IMG/VR virus record: IMGVR_UViG_3300033144_001711
Location: 1 to 49,193 of that record
Source: a virus
Strand: one strand, 5' to 3'
Length of the DNA stretch: 49,193 bases
Shown: in pieces, positions 12-44,449 of the stretch
How positions within the stretch are numbered: position 1 is the stretch's first letter
Layout: each line of letters opens with the position of its first letter
Position numbers and translations under genes: made by a program
Notes under the pieces: model-generated
What the model was told of the DNA's origin: nothing
The model's input: the letters and a program-made list of their open reading frames with translations, nothing else
Database searches by the model: none

Positions 12-335
12 CTAGTCACAGCCACCTAACGATTCGTCGTGGGCAGCAACTACTGCTTCAATCTCTCGTAGGTAAGACTTCAGAGTCAAATCGTTCTCTG
101 CCAATGTTAAGAATCCTGACGGGGAAACCTCTCGCATCCGAGACTGGTCTTCAACTGACACTGGTTGTAAAACGAAATCCCTCTCTAGACACAGCGGGGC
201 ATCTAACAGCCTCTGAGATACACACCCTGAGAGAACAGTACATAACAGCACAAGCAAAGGCAATAAACAAACTGATGGAAGACGAACTGATGAAGGTTGC
301 TTCTGCAAACCAAGTCGTTGATGATTAGAAGTCAT
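12..335 (-). CDS. o-spanin (Rz1-like outer-membrane lipoprotein), allele A
   Basis: This is the outer-membrane half of the spanin complex, which fuses inner and outer membranes in the last step of Gram-negative lysis. From the ATG at 335 the protein has a basic, Ser/Arg-rich N-terminus, a hydrophobic stretch and a lipobox ending L-S-G-C, then a short periplasmic domain of about 70 residues. It starts inside the 3' end of the i-spanin gene (325-624) in another frame, the classic Rz/Rz1 arrangement. An in-frame TTG at 365 would add ten residues but precedes no better signal peptide. A diverged second copy lies at 48808-49101: the C-terminal half is nearly identical (for example the block LCLERDFVLQPVS), while the signal-peptide region differs strongly. 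Confidence 0.8.
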   Translation of the reverse strand: MTSNHQRLGLQKQPSSVRLPSVCLLPLLVLLCTVLSGCVSQRLLDAPLCLERDFVLQPVSVEDQSRMREVSPSGFLTLAENDLTLKSYLREIEAVVAAHDESLGGCD

Positions 336-624
336 TGGGATCTGTGAAGTTGCCAACACCTTCAAACTCTTCTTTCTTCTTTGATAGTTCTTTCTTTAGT
401 TCTTCCCTTCGGGAGAACAATACTTTCCGGGAGAACAATACTTTCTTCTCTTCTTTCTTTATTATCTTGTTAACTCTTTGAACATGGACTCTTGCTTTGA
501 GGACATCCCTCTCCATTCTAGCCTTGTCTCTTGCATTCTTTAGCATCTGCATCCTGCCGATGGCAGCCAGTACAATCAGTACTACTGCTCCGATAGCATA
601 CATCTTAGACATTAACCAAGTCAT
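325..624 (-). CDS. i-spanin (Rz-like inner-membrane protein)
   Basis: A 99-residue type II membrane protein. An N-terminal transmembrane helix (about residues 8-26) is followed by a long, highly charged coiled coil rich in Lys, Glu and Arg. This is the usual architecture of Rz, which spans the periplasm and pairs with the Rz1 lipoprotein. It overlaps the holin stop by 4 bases (621-624) and the o-spanin start downstream, so holin, i-spanin and o-spanin form a lysis cassette. The coiled coil contains a duplicated hexapeptide K-V-L-F-S-R encoded by an 18-bp tandem repeat. Confidence 0.82.
   Translation of the reverse strand: MTWLMSKMYAIGAVVLIVLAAIGRMQMLKNARDKARMERDVLKARVHVQRVNKIIKKEEKKVLFSRKVLFSRREELKKELSKKKEEFEGVGNFTDPNDF
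410..445. repeat. Two perfect tandem copies of an 18-bp unit inside the i-spanin gene
   Basis: Positions 410-427 and 428-445 are identical. The duplication is in frame and doubles a six-residue segment of the coiled coil. The right end of the window (49193) stops exactly at the position equivalent to 427, the end of the first copy, which suggests the repeat helped break the assembly there. Confidence 0.9.
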
Positions 625-869
625 CTTTCAATACCAACATCGGTTATCGTTCTCAACATCAGATTGAGAATAGCCAATCCAAACACTACCCAAGGTAGCG
701 CTGGACCGAGCAACGGACCCATGCCTGTTAACACGGTAGACAATCCCTCAGTAAAAAACACCGCACTACCTACGACGTTCAACCATATGGTCTTGCTCTT
801 GTACCACGGTTTCCCGACGGGCTCCACGATCATGTCCACTGTTAGCTGTTCTAATTCAAGTTTACTCAT
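621..869 (-). CDS. Putative holin
   Basis: An 82-residue protein with a short charged N-terminus, a K-P-W-Y-K-S-K-T-I-W-L-N-V motif like that of many small phage holins, and two hydrophobic segments (about residues 27-48 and 56-74) separated by a Gly/Pro-rich turn. It would form inner-membrane holes that release or activate the M15 endolysin encoded at 3750-4142. It sits directly upstream of the spanin pair, overlapping it by 4 bases. The function follows from size, topology and context; no catalytic residues are expected. Confidence 0.7.
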   Translation of the reverse strand: MSKLELEQLTVDMIVEPVGKPWYKSKTIWLNVVGSAVFFTEGLSTVLTGMGPLLGPALPWVVFGLAILNLMLRTITDVGIER

Positions 870-26367: not shown

Positions 26368-26445
26368 TGGTCTCTAATGATGGATTCGAACCACCGACAA
26401 CCCGGCTCCAAACCGGGGGCTCTGGCCAGACTGAGCTAATCAGAG
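26368..26445 (-). tRNA. tRNA-Pro (anticodon TGG)
   Basis: A complete cloverleaf can be drawn on the minus strand. The 7-bp acceptor stem starts CTCTGAT and pairs with ATTAGAG. A D-stem GCTC/GAGC follows, then an anticodon stem CCCGG/CCGGG with loop TTTGGAG, so the anticodon is TGG. A T-arm GGTGG-TTCGAAT-CCATC and an encoded CCA end follow. It is the only tRNA I found. It would read CCA and other CCN codons and may support late gene translation, being placed upstream of the terminase and structural genes. Confidence 0.92.
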
Positions 26446-26895: not shown

Positions 26896-27128
26896 TTCAT
26901 CTTTCTTTGGGGGTTTTTAGTTAACTCTTTAATAAACAAAGTTATTTAGTTTTGTGTCTTATGTTCTGAGCACTCCGAAGGAGTCTCTATACATACTCTC
27001 TGAGTATGAGAGCATTTCTAAAGGAACTCACCAGTTCCTGATGATTTCTATGAGTAGTTTTTTACCTCGCTTTCCACGGAGTGGAAGGCCCCCTAGTCCC
27101 CTCCCCGACCCCTACATCGAAGATGTAG

Positions 27129-27157
27129 ACTATGTCCAATGAATTGCATTATGTCAA
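27129..27157 (-). promoter_or_regulatory. Candidate sigma70 promoter for the minus-strand block
   Basis: On the minus strand a perfect TTGACA (27157-27152) is followed 17 bases later by CATAGT, four of six matches to TATAAT. Transcription would start near 27122 and carry five hairpins of the array in the leader before the lipoprotein gene. Confidence 0.45.
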
Positions 27158-27238
27158 GCGGATCGAGAGTTATGTAACACGAAGTGTTACCATAACTTCA
27201 CACACACACGTAATATGTTAACTAACATATTCAATTCG

Positions 27239-27266
27239 TTGACAATTGCACACGTTTGCATTAAAT
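27239..27266 (+). promoter_or_regulatory. Candidate early promoter for the plus-strand block
   Basis: A perfect TTGACA at 27239-27244 is followed, with a 16-base spacer, by TTAAAT at 27261-27266 (17-base spacer gives TAAATA). The surroundings are AT-rich. The predicted start near 27273 falls at the 8-bp hairpin 27271-27289, so the transcript would begin in or just before a stem-loop. Host RNA polymerase would be used, as no phage polymerase gene is present. Confidence 0.55.
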
Positions 27267-27389
27267 AATTTAGGTTACTACGTAACCTACTCTGAGGTCA
27301 TGTATGTGCGCGGTAGTTACCGCGTCACGTTACGCATGTGTATGGCGGTAGCTCTGCTACCGATGGAGGCTGGAGACTTAGGAGAAAGA

Positions 27390-27419
27390 GCCCCTTCCCT
27401 TACGAAGTAAGGAAGGGGC
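27390..27419 (+). promoter_or_regulatory. Long leader hairpin before the first early gene
   Basis: Arms of about 13 bases (one bulged C) close on a C-GAA-G triloop at 27404-27406. A second possible pairing uses AAGGGG at 27413-27418 with CCCCTT at 27424-27429, so two structures compete just upstream of the ribosome-binding site of the gene at 27449. That would suit attenuation or translation control. There is no true T-tract. Confidence 0.5.
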
Positions 27420-27448
27420 CTTTCCCCTTACCAAGTGGAGAAACGACG

Positions 27449-27616
27449 ATGAATCAGATTGACTTGCAACGTATCACCAAAGGTGATACACTTCTTGGCC
27501 TGTCTCCTTCGGAGATTGAGCACATTGATCTCATCAGAGATGAGATGGACCCAGTTTGGGTCAACCATCAGGGTTCCCCTGAGATGGACTTGAACAACTG
27601 CTTTGGCAGTTGTTAG
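27449..27616 (+). CDS. Early small acidic protein 1
   Basis: A 55-residue protein, first gene of the plus-strand early unit. The ATG at 27449 has GGAG 8 bases upstream; an upstream in-frame extension has no such site. The sequence is acidic in the middle (E-I-E-H-I-D-L) and ends C-F-G-S-C. No known family. The gene contains five triloop hairpins, three of them with the loop exactly on a codon, plus a 9-bp-stem hairpin over its stop codon. Position suggests an early host-takeover peptide. Confidence 0.7.
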   Translation: MNQIDLQRITKGDTLLGLSPSEIEHIDLIRDEMDPVWVNHQGSPEMDLNNCFGSC

Positions 27617-27625
27617 GAGAGCAAC

Positions 27626-27763
27626 ATGAATAGCAAAGCTATTTGCCATTGCAGCGAAGACCGCTGCCCTTGTGACCCCATCGTCGAAGACGACGATGTG
27701 GTAACCTACGACAACCTGATCGAAGATCAGGTTGAGGCTGTTGAGGAGATGCTAGATGAGTAG
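27626..27763 (+). CDS. Early small Cys-rich acidic protein 2
   Basis: A 45-residue protein with AGGAGAG just before its ATG. The N-terminal part has C-H-C and C-P-C pairs (residues 7-16), which could bind a metal. The rest is strongly acidic (V-E-D-D-D-V-V, I-E-D-Q-V-E-A-V-E-E). The stop overlaps the start of the next gene by 8 bases. It carries the longest perfect triloop stem of the array (10 bp, 27712-27734). An acidic protein of this kind could act as a DNA mimic or protein inhibitor; this is a guess. Confidence 0.68.
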   Translation: MNSKAICHCSEDRCPCDPIVEDDDVVTYDNLIEDQVEAVEEMLDE

Positions 27764-28052
27764 CGTAGCTACTGTACAGGACTCTTTGAGTCCTGAGATC
27801 CTAGCCCAGATAGCACAGTCCTTTGGACTGGACTTGACGGAAGAAGACTACATGACCGGGGAGTTCCTCCCCGATGAGTGGCTTCAACAAGCCGTAGGCT
27901 TGGTGACTGGAGAGCACCTCTGGCACACCATGTGGCTCTTCGGCATCGTCCTTGACGATGACGGGGACTACTACGTACCATCGGACCACCTCATAGAGGT
28001 GGAACTGATCGAGTTAAACGGCCCTAACAGGGCCAAGGAGCTTCAAGCATGA
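27756..28052 (+). CDS. Early small acidic protein 3
   Basis: A 98-residue acidic protein with helical N-terminal half (S-P-E-I-L-A-Q-I-A-Q-S-F) and a Trp/His-rich centre (H-L-W-H-T-M-W-L), ending in an Asp-rich strand and a basic tip. The ATG at 27756 lies inside the preceding gene's end. It holds eight triloop hairpins, seven with the loop on a codon. No family is recognised. Its low content of basic residues recalls other early inhibitor proteins of lytic phages. Confidence 0.75.
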   Translation: MSSVATVQDSLSPEILAQIAQSFGLDLTEEDYMTGEFLPDEWLQQAVGLVTGEHLWHTMWLFGIVLDDDGDYYVPSDHLIEVELIELNGPNRAKELQA

Positions 28053-28255
28053 GCATCAGACGGATACACATGACCGTCAATGTCGAAGACATTGTCGATA
28101 GCGGTACTGGCATAGCCAGTGATTGCGGTGCAACAGACGAAGTCGTATCGAAGATACGAGCCTTCGTTAATGACAACATGTTCAGTGACTACGTCACTGT
28201 TGAGGTAACTGAGATCTCCATCTCTGATGGAGATGACTGGAGGGTAGCAACATGA
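28049..28255 (+). CDS. Early small protein 4
   Basis: A 68-residue protein with ATGA coupling to the preceding gene (28049-28052). It has a basic first strand (S-I-R-R-I-H-M-T-V) followed by acidic segments and a Y-V-T-V-E-V-T-E-I-S strand, compatible with a small alpha-beta fold. Five triloop hairpins lie in it, including the 9-bp stem at 28214-28234. Function unknown. Confidence 0.72.
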   Translation: MSIRRIHMTVNVEDIVDSGTGIASDCGATDEVVSKIRAFVNDNMFSDYVTVEVTEISISDGDDWRVAT

Positions 28256-28386
28256 GGCAATATCACGGATACTGTCGAAGACAGACAGGTAGCATCGGGT
28301 CCGATCTCTTTGAGATCGGTTGTGCTTTCGGACTCACCATCCTAATAGGATGGGCAATGGTAGCCACCATAGGTGGCTTGTCATGA
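28252..28386 (+). CDS. Early small membrane protein 5
   Basis: A 44-residue protein, ATGA-coupled at both ends. The N-terminal 18 residues are basic and polar. Residues about 24-43 form one hydrophobic helix (C-A-F-G-L-T-I-L-I-G-W-A-M-V-A), so it is probably a single-pass inner-membrane peptide. Four triloop hairpins overlap it. It could act in superinfection exclusion or membrane modification, but the sequence gives no proof. Confidence 0.6.
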   Translation: MRQYHGYCRRQTGSIGSDLFEIGCAFGLTILIGWAMVATIGGLS

Positions 28387-28451
28387 CGCCGGGCATCATG
28401 CTCCTGCTTATCATCATAGTAGCTTCGCTACTAGATGAGGCATGGAAGTGA
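28383..28451 (+). CDS. Early membrane micropeptide 6
   Basis: A 22-residue peptide, ATGA-coupled to the preceding gene, made almost entirely of a hydrophobic helix (I-M-L-L-L-I-I-I-V-A-S-L-L) with an acidic/basic tip. The size is at the limit of gene calling; coupling and the identical style of its neighbours support it. A similar 24-residue peptide ends the plus-strand block at 48450. Confidence 0.5.
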   Translation: MTPGIMLLLIIIVASLLDEAWK

Positions 28452-28617
28452 ACAGCGCCTCCCTCTCTCCTTTAGGAGAGAGGGAGAAAGTGTGGCAAGA
28501 AACCAACAACCGAAGGTTGTTGTCCCTCTCTCTTTACGTCCTGAACGAAGTGAAGGACGGAAAGAGAGAGAGACCAACCCCAACTGAATGCTGCAAATGG
28601 CAGCGAAGGAGATAGAA

Positions 28618-28956
28618 ATGGGTGAACGAGTAAGCAACAAGGCTATCTTGGATAGCCTCGAATCCGGCTTTGACCGGTTGATCAACGCATTGACAGCCAA
28701 TGCCATTGCTCCAGTAGCTAACGCTATTGCCCCGACCGAGGTAGCTAAGGCTCCGCCGGTTGACCCGACGTACTTGGCACACATGACAGCTAAAGCTGCC
28801 GAACATGCCACGAACAAGGGTGAAGAAGTCGTCTTGTATACAAGACGTAACAAAGCAGGTGAGGCTAAGCTAGCTTATGCACTGCGTAGTAGGTATGACG
28901 CCGTGGTTGCCAAGCAACCCAGCTGTACCGGTGCCATTGGCACCTTCCAAGCCTAG
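28618..28956 (+). CDS. Early small Ala-rich protein 7
   Basis: A 112-residue protein. I chose the ATG at 28618, with AAGGAG 7 bases upstream, over an in-frame ATG at 28588. The N-terminal half is an Ala/Asn/Ile helix with two A-N-A-I-A-P repeats (about residues 28-41). The C-terminal half is basic (Y-T-R-R-N-K-A-G-E-A-K, R-S-R-Y-D-A), so nucleic-acid binding is possible. It is the last gene of the unit; its stop lies within a triloop hairpin and the terminator follows 17 bases later. Confidence 0.72.
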   Translation: MGERVSNKAILDSLESGFDRLINALTANAIAPVANAIAPTEVAKAPPVDPTYLAHMTAKAAEHATNKGEEVVLYTRRNKAGEAKLAYALRSRYDAVVAKQPSCTGAIGTFQA

Positions 28957-28973
28957 CTTGGAGTCACCATCAA

Positions 28974-28999
28974 GGGCACCCTTTGGGGTGTCCTTTTTT
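28974..28999 (+). terminator. Intrinsic terminator of the early small-gene unit
   Basis: An 8-bp stem (28974-28981 with 28986-28993, one G-U pair), a four-base loop TTTG and six consecutive T directly after it. This is the clearest rho-independent terminator in the window. It would set apart the hairpin-rich early genes from the longer downstream plus-strand block, unless read-through or antitermination operates. Confidence 0.88.
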
Positions 29000-30020: not shown

Positions 30021-30392
30021 ATGCATAACTGGCGCGATCATTCGGGTAGCTGGCCTAAGTACAATGCCCCGCCAACCCACGACTATCGTTCGCTGATGAA
30101 CACATCGACGATATCAATGTACGAAGCAGAGAAGAGGAGAGCAGAGGTGCATGAGAGAGACAGGTTAAACAAACGGATACGTGACCTTGAGGCAGCACAA
30201 CCTAAGCCTGACCCTATCACGGTAGTAAGTGAGAAGGTAGAGAGCTTCGAGGTTAAGCGACGTTGGCATGGATGGACACTAGAACTTAATGTCTGTCAGA
30301 CCATGAGTGAGGGGCGTGACCAGCACACCGGGCGCACTGCTTGCTTCCATACTAAGGCAGCACTGCTCAAGTTCCTTGAGTCTGACCTGTAA
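30021..30392 (+). CDS. Hypothetical protein with N-terminal Trp/His segment
   Basis: A 123-residue protein. The ATG at 30021 has GGAGAGG 6 bases upstream, preferred to an upstream open extension. A polar N-terminus (H-N-W-R-D-H-S) precedes a charged helix (about 38-60), then a beta-like W-H-G-W-T-L-E-L segment and a helical end. The TAATG at 30392 couples it to the next gene. No family recognised. Confidence 0.62.
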   Translation: MHNWRDHSGSWPKYNAPPTHDYRSLMNTSTISMYEAEKRRAEVHERDRLNKRIRDLEAAQPKPDPITVVSEKVESFEVKRRWHGWTLELNVCQTMSEGRDQHTGRTACFHTKAALLKFLESDL

Positions 30393-33558: not shown

Positions 33559-34042
33559 TGGAGCAGACAGGTTCTTTGACGAGATGTTAGAGACAGCAAA
33601 GAAAGTAGCACGTAAGGACGTAGCAAATGAGCAACGCAAGATCAAGGCTGACTTAGTTAAGGTAAGGCGTGACTTGAAGGCAGCACAGAAGGCAGTGACA
33701 GGTGTAGCTGGACGTGAGGCTGCATGTACTAGACGTGAGACAGCAGTCAAGAGGCGTGAAGGTACCATTGCTACCAAGTGTACGAGAGCAGAGCAGCACC
33801 TTAAGTACCGTGAGACTGACATCAAGCTAGCTGAGAAAGAGATCATTAGCTTGCTCAATCAAATCGAGGCCGTTAAGAATGAGAAGGTAGAGACTGTGAC
33901 TACGACAGCCCGACGGTTTGTTACACGTAGTACAGGTAGAGGGTGGTATGGTAGGAAGGTAGCCTCCACCAAGGCAGAGGCACTGTCTAACATCAAGCGC
34001 AGGGTAAACTCACTAGCTAAGAAGGAAGCAAAGGATGAGTAA
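33551..34042 (+). CDS. Coiled-coil basic protein
   Basis: A 163-residue protein almost wholly alpha-helical: residues about 10-115 show heptad-like spacing with Lys, Arg, Glu and Ala, and a basic C-terminus follows (R-R-F-V-T-R-S-T-G-R-G-W). It could be a DNA-condensing or oligomerising early protein. It overlaps its neighbours by 8 bases each. It lies just upstream of the AAA+/VWA pair. Confidence 0.65.
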   Translation: MSNGADRFFDEMLETAKKVARKDVANEQRKIKADLVKVRRDLKAAQKAVTGVAGREAACTRRETAVKRREGTIATKCTRAEQHLKYRETDIKLAEKEIISLLNQIEAVKNEKVETVTTTARRFVTRSTGRGWYGRKVASTKAEALSNIKRRVNSLAKKEAKDE

Positions 34043-34268
34043 TGACGACAACATAGTACGCACTGACCTCGGCTTTGCCGAGCAGCTTAATCTCGACAGC
34101 CTAGTACGTACTACGGCTAGTCAGATGTTCGAGAACGATAACAACGTCGCTACCCTTGAGGTGACACTCAACGGTACTGATGCACCTGTTCCACCTAGGC
34201 TAGAGTTTGAAATGAGGTTGATAGCTATCAACGGTGACAAAGTAGAGGGAGCTAGGGACAATGGCTAA
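34035..34268 (+). CDS. Small acidic protein before the AAA+ gene
   Basis: A 77-residue acidic protein with N-terminal helix and a C-terminal beta-hairpin (V-A-T-L-E-V-T-L-N, R-L-E-F-E-M-R-L). It overlaps the AAA+ ATPase gene by 8 bases, so it may work with that machine, perhaps as an adaptor. The last point is inference. Confidence 0.6.
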   Translation: MSNDDNIVRTDLGFAEQLNLDSLVRTTASQMFENDNNVATLEVTLNGTDAPVPPRLEFEMRLIAINGDKVEGARDNG

Positions 34269-35352
34269 CATGGGTGCCCCACTCAAGGGCAAGTACGATC
34301 CTAGTATCATCGCATCTATTGTGGATGACACTAAGCAACAACAAGAGGCACTCAAGGCTGACCCCTTTGAGATCACTGAGACTGTTGAGTTAACAGGTGA
34401 TGAGGGTGCAGTGCTATTCAGCTCGGTGTTCTGGAACCCTAAAGAGATACCTGACCTGCCATTGCGCATGTTTAAGGTGGAGGATTGGCATGAAGAAGCA
34501 CAGCTACAGATCCCAGCTATTGATAAGCGTTGGATCTGGAACAAGCCTGTCACCGAACGACTGGCGCTTGCTCTGTACTCAGGTGATACCACACTGCTCC
34601 ATGGTTTACACGGGACAGGTAAGAGTTGCATTGCCGAGCAATGGTGTGCCCTCTTTAACATCCCAGCTTGGCGTATGTCATGTAACAGGGAGACAAGAGA
34701 GGCTCACTTCGTAGGGAGTGCGGGACTAGACTATGACGAAGAAGGTAAGATGCGAATCAAACAGGAGCCAACGCTCCTCACTGACAGTCTCAAACATGGT
34801 GGCATGTTCATCGAGGACGAGGCTTTCAGACACAACTCTGCGCTTGTACTCCAGTCTTTGCGGGAGAAGAACACACGGACCCTTACACTACCAGATGCAC
34901 CGGGTCGTACAGCAGCTGACCGTAGACTACATGCGCCTGAAGGTAGATGGTGGTACGTCCTCACTGATAACACATGTGGAATTGGGGACGAAACAGGGGT
35001 ATTCGACGCACAAGTACAGGATGCTAGTACCTTAGATAGAGTCGGGGCTGTCATTGAAGTAGACTACCTATCACCAGCACAAGAGACCCGCATCCTTAAG
35101 AAGTATTGCAACCTGAGTAAGGAGCAGATCAAGGGTATGCTTAAGTTCACCGAGAATGTACGCACTGCCTTCCGATCACAACAGATGTTATCTACCCTGA
35201 GTGTACGCTCCCTCTTAGCATGGGCTGAGAAGACAGAGTTAACACAGTCACTAGAGATAGGGCTCAAGATGACATGGTTCGAGAAGTTATGTGAGGATGA
35301 CCGGGCTACTGCCAAGGACCTCTATCATCAGGTATTTGCGAGGACACTATGA
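34261..35352 (+). CDS. AAA+ ATPase, MoxR/CobS-like
   Basis: A 363-residue ATPase. Walker A G-L-H-G-T-G-K-S lies at residues 115-122, Walker B G-G-M-F-I-E-D-E about 45 residues later, and a sensor 1 L-T-D-N-T follows. The fold is that of MoxR/CobS proteins, which remodel partners together with VWA proteins. It is ATGA-coupled to the VWA gene, so the two form a functional pair. Cobaviruses carry related CobS-like genes. A cobaltochelatase role is unlikely, since no other cobalamin gene is present; a chaperone-like role in replication or host takeover is more likely. Confidence 0.85.
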   Translation: MANMGAPLKGKYDPSIIASIVDDTKQQQEALKADPFEITETVELTGDEGAVLFSSVFWNPKEIPDLPLRMFKVEDWHEEAQLQIPAIDKRWIWNKPVTERLALALYSGDTTLLHGLHGTGKSCIAEQWCALFNIPAWRMSCNRETREAHFVGSAGLDYDEEGKMRIKQEPTLLTDSLKHGGMFIEDEAFRHNSALVLQSLREKNTRTLTLPDAPGRTAADRRLHAPEGRWWYVLTDNTCGIGDETGVFDAQVQDASTLDRVGAVIEVDYLSPAQETRILKKYCNLSKEQIKGMLKFTENVRTAFRSQQMLSTLSVRSLLAWAEKTELTQSLEIGLKMTWFEKLCEDDRATAKDLYHQVFARTL

Positions 35353-37193
35353 GTAGAGTAGCTAGTGTACTGGATGTTGACCACGTTGTTACAGTACTAC
35401 AGCGTAGGTGTAATGACCAAGGCATACAGCTCAAGTGGACAGATGATCAAGAGTTAGCTGCGACTAATGGCAAGGAGATCATACTGCCCAAGATACAGCA
35501 GCCTGTTACTAAGGCTGCACTTGACAAGCTGTATGGATTTGTTATCCATGAGGCAGGGCATCACACAAGGCCAGAGATATTCAACATAGCCAGAGGTGCG
35601 CTTGAGAAGGGCGCTACTGATGGCATGATGGGACTCCTTAACATCATCGAGGATGATGCAATGGAACGTGAGGTCTCCTCTAAGTACAGGGGTGACGCAA
35701 CCGCATTGGGTAACTTGAACAGCACCATCTTAGGTGAGCTAGCTGGTATGCTGGCTGACTTTAAGATACCAGAGGATGCAACAACAGAGGACATAGCACC
35801 CATGACAGCATGTGGTGTGAGTCAACTGTCACGTACCAACTGGGATGGGTACAGTACACAGGCACGAGCTAAGTACTTCGCTGCCCTGCCTGACAAGGCT
35901 GCCACTGAGGTTAACACCTTAGCTATGGAAGGCTGGCATAAGAAGATGCAACAAGTAACCGACCCACACTCAGCGTGGGACCTGACCATTGACCTATATA
36001 AGAGGCTATACCCTAATGCAGACGACGACAAACTTGAAGAGATCCGCCAAGCTGGTCATGATGGACCTCAAGGTGAGGGGGGAGAGGGGGATAGTGACGA
36101 AGGTCAGGGGGATGGCGGTGATGTACCTACTGATCAAGCAGGGGACTCCGCTGGCGACGCTACAGGTAGTGAAGGACAGGAAGAAAGCGGTGATAAAGGT
36201 AAGTCTACTGATGGAGAAGGCACGGTAGTAAGCTGGAAGGACTTCATACTCAGTGAGCACAACGAGTGGAAAGCTAAAGAAGAGGGACAGTTCGGTAGCA
36301 TAGGCATTGACTGGACTGACTACGAGGGTGATGGTAGTATGATGCTCATGCCCCAACACCTTATCAACGTGGTTGATTGCCGCAAGGGCAAGGGCCAAGA
36401 GACACATGAGGGGCACCGTGGTAAACCTCATAACTTCATGTCTGATAACGCAGAGGCTAGACGTTTCGGTAGTCAGATACGTAGGTACATCCAAGCTAAG
36501 GCACGGACACAGGTAGTACGAGAGAAGTACCATGGTAAGCTGGACAAGAGTAGCCTAGTGAGGCTGGCTCTGCCACCTATCGATGGTGGTGAGTACAACA
36601 AGCGTGTGTTCTACGACTGGGAAGAGCAGAAGGAACTCAACACTTGCATCCATGTGTTAACTGACTGGTCCGGTAGTATGAACGGACGTAAGATGAAGTA
36701 CGCAGCTGATGCTAGTGGTAGGTTAGTGTACACCTTCGACCGCATACTCAGGGTGCCAGTGCAGCTGGCTGCCTTCAGTAACCGAGCTTCTGAGTGTGAC
36801 ATAGGCTTAATCAAGCGCTTCAATGACAGGAGTGTAAGTCCACAGGACATAGCCGACTCGTTCTCTAAGTTCTACAGGTACACATCAGCTAACAACGACG
36901 CTGATGCAGTGATGTGGGCATACAACCAACTCAAGCGACGCAAGGAAGAGCGTAAGATCCTAATCGTACTGAGTGATGGGTGCCCAGCGGGTGCTTATAG
37001 CTACAGCAATGGACACTTGAACCTACAGACAGTAACCAAACAGATCGAGAAGGAAGGCAAGATAGAACTGTATGGTGTGGGCATATGCTCAGATGCAGTC
37101 GAGTCATACTACACCAACACTCGGGTACTTCAAGGGCCCGGAGAAATCAACTCAACACTAATGAACATCATCAAAGATGGAGCATACAAATGA
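35349..37193 (+). CDS. VWA-domain protein with N-terminal HExxH motif (CobT-like)
   Basis: A 614-residue protein. Residues 67-71 form H-E-A-G-H, a zincin motif, and L-N-I-I-E-D-D with Glu101 could give the third ligand. Residues about 225-290 are a long Gly/Glu/Asp-rich disordered linker. A von Willebrand factor A domain follows, with the MIDAS motif D-W-S-G-S at about 438-442 and downstream V-L-S-D-G. It is the usual partner of the MoxR/CobS-like ATPase encoded just before. A metal-dependent protease or remodelling complex acting on host or phage proteins is a reasonable idea, not shown. Confidence 0.8.
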   Translation: MSRVASVLDVDHVVTVLQRRCNDQGIQLKWTDDQELAATNGKEIILPKIQQPVTKAALDKLYGFVIHEAGHHTRPEIFNIARGALEKGATDGMMGLLNIIEDDAMEREVSSKYRGDATALGNLNSTILGELAGMLADFKIPEDATTEDIAPMTACGVSQLSRTNWDGYSTQARAKYFAALPDKAATEVNTLAMEGWHKKMQQVTDPHSAWDLTIDLYKRLYPNADDDKLEEIRQAGHDGPQGEGGEGDSDEGQGDGGDVPTDQAGDSAGDATGSEGQEESGDKGKSTDGEGTVVSWKDFILSEHNEWKAKEEGQFGSIGIDWTDYEGDGSMMLMPQHLINVVDCRKGKGQETHEGHRGKPHNFMSDNAEARRFGSQIRRYIQAKARTQVVREKYHGKLDKSSLVRLALPPIDGGEYNKRVFYDWEEQKELNTCIHVLTDWSGSMNGRKMKYAADASGRLVYTFDRILRVPVQLAAFSNRASECDIGLIKRFNDRSVSPQDIADSFSKFYRYTSANNDADAVMWAYNQLKRRKEERKILIVLSDGCPAGAYSYSNGHLNLQTVTKQIEKEGKIELYGVGICSDAVESYYTNTRVLQGPGEINSTLMNIIKDGAYK

Positions 37194-43919: not shown

Positions 43920-44055
43920 GAAGTCAGTAGATGGAGAGCAGGTGTATGTGTTCGCTCTCCCCTCTGGGGCTTACACATGTATGAAGCGCAGTTGGCTGAC
44001 ACACATGGGAGTACTAATGGACGATGGCGAAGAGAAACTTAAGAAGCGGACGTAG
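43888..44055 (+). CDS. Small basic hypothetical protein
   Basis: A 55-residue protein starting with AAGGAG about 8 bases upstream, overlapping both the DUF3310 gene (32 bases) and the endonuclease gene (32 bases) in other frames. Basic at both ends (K-I-K-K-S, K-L-K-K-R-T), with a hydrophobic centre. The good ribosome-binding site supports it; function unknown. Confidence 0.5.
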   Translation: MQQMPTLTKIKKSVDGEQVYVFALPSGAYTCMKRSWLTHMGVLMDDGEEKLKKRT

Positions 44056-44449
44056 GTCTAAGTTCGAGGACCGTATAGCACAGGAGTTAACTGATGAAGG
44101 CATGGCTTTCACTTACGAGACATGGAGCTACGAGTACGATGAGCCTCTCCGCAAGAATCTCGCACGCTGCGCTGATTGCGGCAGCACATCACTACTGCGT
44201 ACTGGGTGGTACACTCCCGATTTCTTCCTTGCCAATGGAGTCATCATCGAAACAAAAGGACGTTTTACTGCGGCTGACAGGAGAAAGATGGCGGCAATCC
44301 AAGAGAACCATCCCGACCTTGACATTAAGATGCTGTTTATGCGTGACAACAAGATCCACAAGAACTCAACAACTAAGTACTCGGACTGGTGCATATCGAA
44401 CGGGTACGATTACTCAATCAATGAGGTAAAACCAGAATGGCTAAGATAA
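44024..44449 (+). CDS. Endonuclease I (T7 gp3-like Holliday junction resolvase)
   Basis: A 141-residue nuclease, near the T7 gp3 length (149). Visible catalytic positions are F-E-D-R-I-A near the start, W-Y-T-P-D-F (Asp), and I-I-E-T-K-G-R (Glu, Lys), the PD-(D/E)XK set. Between them lies an inserted C-A-D-C-G zinc-binding loop. It resolves branched replication DNA and cuts host DNA. It overlaps the previous gene by 32 bases. Confidence 0.9.
   Translation: MAKRNLRSGRRSKFEDRIAQELTDEGMAFTYETWSYEYDEPLRKNLARCADCGSTSLLRTGWYTPDFFLANGVIIETKGRFTAADRRKMAAIQENHPDLDIKMLFMRDNKIHKNSTTKYSDWCISNGYDYSINEVKPEWLR

Follow-up and report, generated by a model that had tools for sequence, protein, structure and literature searches.

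A dense array of perfect triloop hairpins spans the first early transcription unit of an uncultured phage and some of its relatives

The DNA analysed here is the whole of the IMG/VR virus record IMGVR_UViG_3300033144_001711, a sequence of 49,193 bases (hereafter, the window). Genes for TerL, a head-tail adaptor, capsid, CobS/CobT, a DnaB-like helicase and a DNA polymerase, which looks to be of the PolI type, were identified in the window, and these genes put the phage close to the Zobellviridae (Vibrio phage ICP2, Lentibacter phage ICBM1). The structural genes occupy the minus strand from 1 to 26.4 kb and the early genes the plus strand from 27 to 49 kb. Directly downstream of the point of divergence, past an AT-rich presumed promoter region at about 26.95 kb, lies the feature that concerns us, an array of 35 hairpins in which two perfectly matched arms, at least 6 bp long, enclose a 3-base loop (positions 26992-28962; stems of 6-10 bp, every one different). 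An earlier note made from the sequence had placed the array in the early region; it sits in the first early transcription unit, and the unit is closed by an intrinsic terminator (28972-28995, plus strand) which, unlike the array stems, has a G-U pair. Since ICBM1 has annotated direct terminal repeats at the homologous divergence point, the left end of the genome is probably close to the array; a check of the assembled contigs for terminal repeats revealed a 119-bp overlap in one of them only, G006.

The array is genuine and far beyond chance. About 33 perfect triloop hairpins, with stems all different and in excess of expectation, had been listed in the earlier note; a scan of every centre recovered all 33 at exactly those coordinates and with those loops, confirmed that no two stems are the same, and added two hairpins that had been overlooked, at 27398-27412 (loop GAA) and 28905-28919 (CAA). 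A further hairpin, with the 5-bp stem ACTCC(GAA)GGAGT, can be read at 26972-26984 as the first member; it falls below the 6-bp cut-off used for our counts. The density is 17.8 hairpins per kb in the 1,971 bp of the array as against 0.8 per kb elsewhere (39 hairpins in the remaining 47 kb), and after the array the next hairpin of this class, with a stem of at least 6 bp, is found at 30366. The genome scan and the shuffles that the note had proposed leave its estimate of a large excess standing: dinucleotide shuffles of the array region gave a mean of 0.48 hairpins and a maximum of 3 (100 shuffles), and the open reading frames (ORFs) of the array hold 25 hairpins, compared to 2.5 (maximum 7) when synonymous codons were shuffled within genes and 0.8 (maximum 4) when codons were pooled and shuffled. 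Thus, the proteins encoded there do not account for the array. The loop length of three bases is specific, as 4-base loops give just seven hairpins in the array region and a seeming excess of 5- and 7-base loops is made of the same triloop hairpins less one or two pairs. Hairpins are about as dense in the non-coding leader as in the coding portions, and 33 of the 35 are part of the predicted minimum-energy fold of the DNA. Very short gaps between neighbours are avoided (13 gaps of 8 nt or less, when 26±4 would be expected); beyond this, no regular spacing, helical, SSB-sized (SSB, single-stranded DNA-binding protein) or other, was found.

The hairpins follow a common rule at their tips, which we derived from 185 pooled hairpins with 130 triloops of the same genomes as background. 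The stem is closed by C-G in 152 of the 185 (82%), by T-A in 24, by G-C in 6 and by A-T in 3, with a closing C in 59 of the 130 background hairpins. The loop begins and ends with G..A in 53 cases, T..C in 31, T..T in 38 and A..A in 35, together 157 of 185 (85%) versus 51 of 130 in the background. In 85% of the loops, then, one strand reads R-N-A (R, purine; N, any base), that is, GNA or ANA; 84 of the 185 have GNA on one or the other strand and the remainder are mostly ANA/TNT. Because R-N-A is found on the plus strand in 88 loops and on the minus strand in 69, the rule is nearly strand-symmetric. R-N-A triloops can form a sheared purine-purine pair (G-A or A-A) in DNA hairpins, and the array obeys the rule of the stable C(GNA)G type of DNA loop to which the earlier note had referred. 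We considered whether the C-G bias of the closing pair might hold strand information and rejected the idea, as C(NNN)G is, in form, its own reverse complement. No conserved position was detected among the pooled hairpins in the stem or the flanks other than the closing pair and loop, so that recognition, if any, would be of structure. The design common to the clade is a perfect Watson-Crick stem of 6-12 bp, of free sequence, that is closed by C-G and capped by a loop of three bases.

Relatives were collected by searches with TerL, and the region upstream of TerL was examined wherever it was readable. At least nine independent relatives, with TerL proteins 63-84% identical to that of the window, have an array in the corresponding position, mostly of unrelated sequence. 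In L004, L005, L006, L008, L014, L053, L063 and L065, the richest 1.5 kb of this region holds 7-27 hairpins; L008 comes with near-identical copies, and the array of L014 is cut by the contig end. L164 has ten hairpins, and L077 a weak array. The arrays of the clade, all from uncultured marine phages, comprise about 15-35 hairpins each. The array is restricted to this lineage: it is absent from L062 (TerL 71% identical), from nearly all of the examined relatives with less than 65% TerL identity, and from the cultured Zobellviridae that were examined. Between phages, the array sequences can be aligned in small patches only, so that what is kept is the array itself and not its sequence. A DNA similarity search with the array region among phages returned zero matches, and a search of Rfam only chance matches of a microRNA-like kind, none near any gathering score.

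Covariation in relatives, an analysis that the earlier note had asked for, could be followed in the best-aligned pair of arrays, those of L006 and L008 (77-80% identical), and there pairing is maintained by compensatory change. Of ten usable L006 stems, eight retain complete pairing in L008, and all changes in the conserved stems are paired (A-T/T-A, C-G/T-A and T-A/A-T; for instance, CATCAC to CTTCAC, CCCCAGT to CTCCAGT and CACTTCC to CACTACC), with no pair broken on a single side; slid controls showed almost no compensatory double changes. A paired change, GGTGCC to GGAGCC, also distinguishes the window from L053 at 28930. The outcome that the note had named as a refutation, loss of pairing without compensatory changes in close relatives, is thus not what the comparison showed. 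The arrays also turn over, in that a hairpin can be lost while a new one arises a few codons away in the same conserved peptide (L006 15148, in GLPLVDDEG, versus L008 14989, in GLPLIEDEG); among the few newly gained hairpins that can be aligned, some have one-sided changes in an arm and most two-sided. In coding parts, the loops of array hairpins are distributed 67/14/30 over the three codon phases, the depleted phase being the one that most constrains the protein, as it couples first and second codon positions; for background coding hairpins of the window the phases are 34/24/24.

Perfect arms and paired changes could also arise by mutation. Template switching, or quasi-palindrome correction, would create and perfect inverted repeats in a highly transcribed and plastic region, and the loop rule would then mark those DNA hairpins (C-G closed, R-N-A) that fold well enough to prime a switch. 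Template switching is known to generate and maintain hairpins and to introduce paired changes in one event (PMC8794818), and mutation at quasi-palindromes can be dependent on strong transcription (PMC3820800). The perfection of the arms (17 stems with a single mismatch versus about 125 perfect stems of at least 7 bp), the missing G-U pairs, the double changes, transversions among them, the high turnover and the one-sided arm changes at some hairpins (at L006 15380, three on the left and none on the right) are all in line with this explanation. However, the hairpins are confined to one unit, while the presumably highly expressed major capsid gene and other genes show none; the density is kept in relatives diverged beyond alignment; L062/G003 has similar replication genes but no array; a minimum spacing is kept; and a comparison of homologous hairpins showed no inverted loops. 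Template switching is likely to be a source of new hairpins, yet it is an insufficient reason for the array, and as the whole cause we regard it as rather improbable, if still a serious rival. Were it the cause, the array would show this process in an extreme form, confined to one locus.

Whether DNA or RNA is the selected form was approached through the pairs tolerated in the stems. G-U is almost absent from about 1,350 array stem pairs. Allowing one kind of mismatch gained 84 stems for G-U, 86 for A-C and 83 for A-G, and hence no advantage of G-U, and the internal single mismatches comprise three G-T and three A-C, one of the G-T being in the L004 terminator itself. The terminators that end the unit in the window, L004, L053 and L063 do contain G-U pairs and serve as an internal positive control. 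The scarcity of G-U, together with a loop rule that holds almost equally on both strands, favours selection, or a mutation process, at the level of DNA. The same two findings disfavour the shield against host RNases and the put-like antitermination signal that the earlier note had suggested for the early mRNA. An element of this kind, in which the plus-strand transcript would be structured so as to resist host RNases or Rho, or would carry an antitermination or elongation signal, does have points on its side: the array unit ends in a terminator in the window, L004, L005, L006, L053 and L063, 29 of the 35 stems are included in the predicted minimum-energy fold of the RNA, the leader is about as rich in hairpins as the coding parts, and GNA is somewhat commoner than TNC on the plus strand. 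Stable RNA hairpins, however, favour tetraloops and the array loops are nearly always of three bases; several of the paired changes are transversions, with no route through G-U; and the array stems are nearly without G-U even though the terminators of the same transcripts have it. Tolerance of wobble pairs and a loop rule on the transcribed strand alone, as expected of a structured RNA, are both lacking in the array. We consider an RNA-level element unlikely, though not negligible.

Hairpins with the geometry and loop rule of the array are known from the early promoters of phage N4, and the earlier note had pointed to them. A 3-base loop with G and A at its ends, together with a C-G closing pair, allows the N4 hairpin to extrude at sub-physiological negative supercoiling, and SSB melts the hairpin of one strand but not the GNA hairpin (PMC4496689). 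Like the array, the N4 promoters are C-G-closed triloops with G...A ends and a similar stem length, are located in the left early region and leave the stem bases largely free (PMC4496689); a large part of the array hairpins conform to this type of loop (GNA in 84 and a closing C in 152 of the 185). Each hairpin could be a place where a phage polymerase or primase starts on single-stranded DNA, with many such promoters or priming sites spread along the unit. Unlike the array with its 15-35 sites and no further motif, however, N4 uses three sites with extra conserved bases and a dedicated polymerase of 3,500 amino acids, and the N4 genome has just a few such hairpins in 20 kb. In the array nothing is conserved beyond the loop and the closing pair that might correspond to the stem, loop and flank bases read by the N4 polymerase. 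No match to PF00940, for an RNA polymerase of the T7/N4 type, was found in the genome, in a search that had no working positive control, and a Pfam search of the largest virion proteins, including one of 1,683 amino acids, gave no polymerase match. A promoter or priming role of the N4 kind is therefore very improbable.

Other systems share single traits with the array. Streptomyces telomeres have several different GNA-capped palindromes, with compensatory changes and rapid turnover (PMC7205883), all of which are also found in the array. Yet they measure about 180 nt, are located at linear ends and are replicated with a terminal protein, whereas the array covers up to 2 kb of a coding early region in a phage whose DNA polymerase looks to be of the PolI type, and ANA/TNT loops make up nearly half of those that follow the rule. 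In the target site of the diversity-generating retroelement (DGR) of phage BPP-1, a DNA hairpin or cruciform, it is also the structure of the stem and not its sequence that matters, with a fixed loop, GRNA (PMC3240598), but there a variable repeat is accompanied by just one hairpin, with 4 nt in its loop; the array loops have 3 nt, and a search with a positive control found no RVT_1 match. The mitochondria of Nematomorpha have perfect inverted repeats in functional coding genes, and the long repeats under-use the codon phase that constrains most; unlike in the array, the arms reach 284 bp, the repeats occur throughout the mitochondrial genome and no triloop or closing-pair rule is reported (PMC6649704). 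The hairpins made by template switching resemble the array in their perfect arms and in acquiring paired changes in one event (PMC8794818). As tested, the array belongs with neither the DGRs, the N4 promoters, the telomeres nor the Nematomorpha palindromes. DGRs depend on a reverse transcriptase and on loops of four bases, the N4 promoters on additional conserved bases and a polymerase of their own, and telomeres occupy the ends of chromosomes. We know of no template-switch hairpins that form an array conserved in a lineage at a single locus and with a loop rule. No such array has been described for a phage in the openly licensed literature that we searched, and against that literature we rate it as a new kind of feature, with a purpose that can only be proposed.

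Among the options, selection at the level of DNA is the likeliest, an unusual mutation process being less likely, and we give a probability of about 45% to the array being a selectively maintained DNA-structure element. Loops of the R-N-A type, with their sheared pair, would allow the hairpins to form on negatively supercoiled or single-stranded DNA, as they do at the N4 promoters. As early DNA enters or is transcribed, one hairpin about every 50 bp might then extrude, and the extruded hairpins would keep the unit partly unwound, take up negative supercoiling and present many identical loop structures to a protein that reads structure. The best candidates for such a reader would be host SSB or an early protein of 112 amino acids that is inherited together with the array (see below). 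Our best guess at the downstream role, albeit a doubtful one, is that the hairpins keep this unit open or protect it. It is likewise conceivable, if on balance improbable, that the array represents a new class of viral cis-element, in which DNA mini-hairpins free in stem sequence cover the first early operon, extrude on entry and are read by the 112-amino-acid family through structure alone, so that an entire block of genes is marked by the shape of its DNA and not by its sequence. Several observations weigh against a DNA-structure element. The array covers one transcription unit and extends no further than the terminator, as an RNA element would; GNA exceeds TNC on the plus strand (53:31, p = 0.02); perfect arms, paired changes and turnover would also be expected from template switching; and the 112-amino-acid protein has no nucleic-acid-binding fold recognised by family and fold searches. 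In addition, a homologue of T7 endonuclease I is encoded at 44024-44449 (Pfam E-value 1e-31), as it also is in relatives with no array. Enzymes of this type cut cruciforms and resolve Holliday junctions, so that hairpins stably extruded at late times of infection would be a liability. If the array does act as DNA, then protein-coding genes of these phages have been written so that their DNA folds into one hairpin after another, with free stem sequences and the loop rule alone kept. It would also test how short cruciforms behave in vivo and how DNA shape marks or protects entering phage DNA, and would bear on the handling of hairpins by SSB, by resolvases and by defences that sense palindromes, among which Lamassu/DdmABC was considered as a possible opponent.

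The candidate partner, the 112-amino-acid protein, is encoded by the last gene of the unit (28618-28956, plus strand). Homologues are found in every array-bearing genome that covers the locus (L004, L005, L006, L008, L053, L063, L065 and L164, the last 40% identical), and none was found in the array-less relatives tested (L061, L062, L076, L078, L087, L100 and L113) or in L077, with its weak array. As the gene is inside the array, this co-occurrence may be simple co-inheritance. Searches of viral contigs with the single sequence, or with the neighbouring protein of 208 amino acids, returned zero matches; for the 112-amino-acid family, a search with an alignment succeeded where the single sequence had failed. 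In the predicted model, an N-terminal helix is followed by a linker and then by a C-terminal domain of the order helix-strand-strand-helix-strand, for which the predicted local distance difference test score (pLDDT) is about 85. Foldseek and VIA-align comparisons of the model found no clear relative (best Z 4.7). An SRF-type MADS fold was considered and set aside (Z 3.5-3.7, within noise), and no fold is claimed. Upstream of the gene, at 28523-28575, is a distinct RNA-like element whose loop, GAACGAAGTGA, is retained in L004 while the flanking stem differs on both sides (ACGTCCT/AGGACG versus GACCTC/GAGGTC).

The other ORFs of the unit are small and all on the plus strand, and a protein-family search of the array ORFs gave nothing informative. 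One (27449-27616, beginning MNQIDLQ) has a motif, HQGSPEMDL, that by eye corresponds to HQGCPEMDL in L006. It is followed within the array by an acidic ORF of 45 codons (27626-27763), one of 98 (27756-28052) with a homologue in G002/L053, one of 68 (28049-28255) and a membrane-like one of 44 (28252-28386) with homologues in L004 and L053. In the ORFs starting at 27626 and 27756, a hairpin begins at the base right after the ATG. The unit also has two longer GC-rich hairpins, imperfect or with a 4-base loop, at 27389-27420 and 28459-28487 (GCCCCTTCC...GGAAGGGGC; CTCCCTCTCTCCTTTAGGAGAGAGGGAG), and comparable ones are found in L006 (at about 15275) and L008 (at about 15105). Three small genes at the late end of the window (12-365, 325-624 and 621-869, minus strand) are present in the array-bearing G001, G002 and G004 and not in the array-less G003. 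A tRNA-Pro (TGG) gene adjoins the divergence point (26368-26445, minus strand). Further into the early region, a protein of 77 amino acids (34035-34268) has a weak match to the T7 gp5.9-like family of RecBCD inhibitors (E-value 0.026), and the genes for CobS/CobT-like cobaltochelatase subunits are located at 34261-37193, as in ICP2 and other Zobellviridae.

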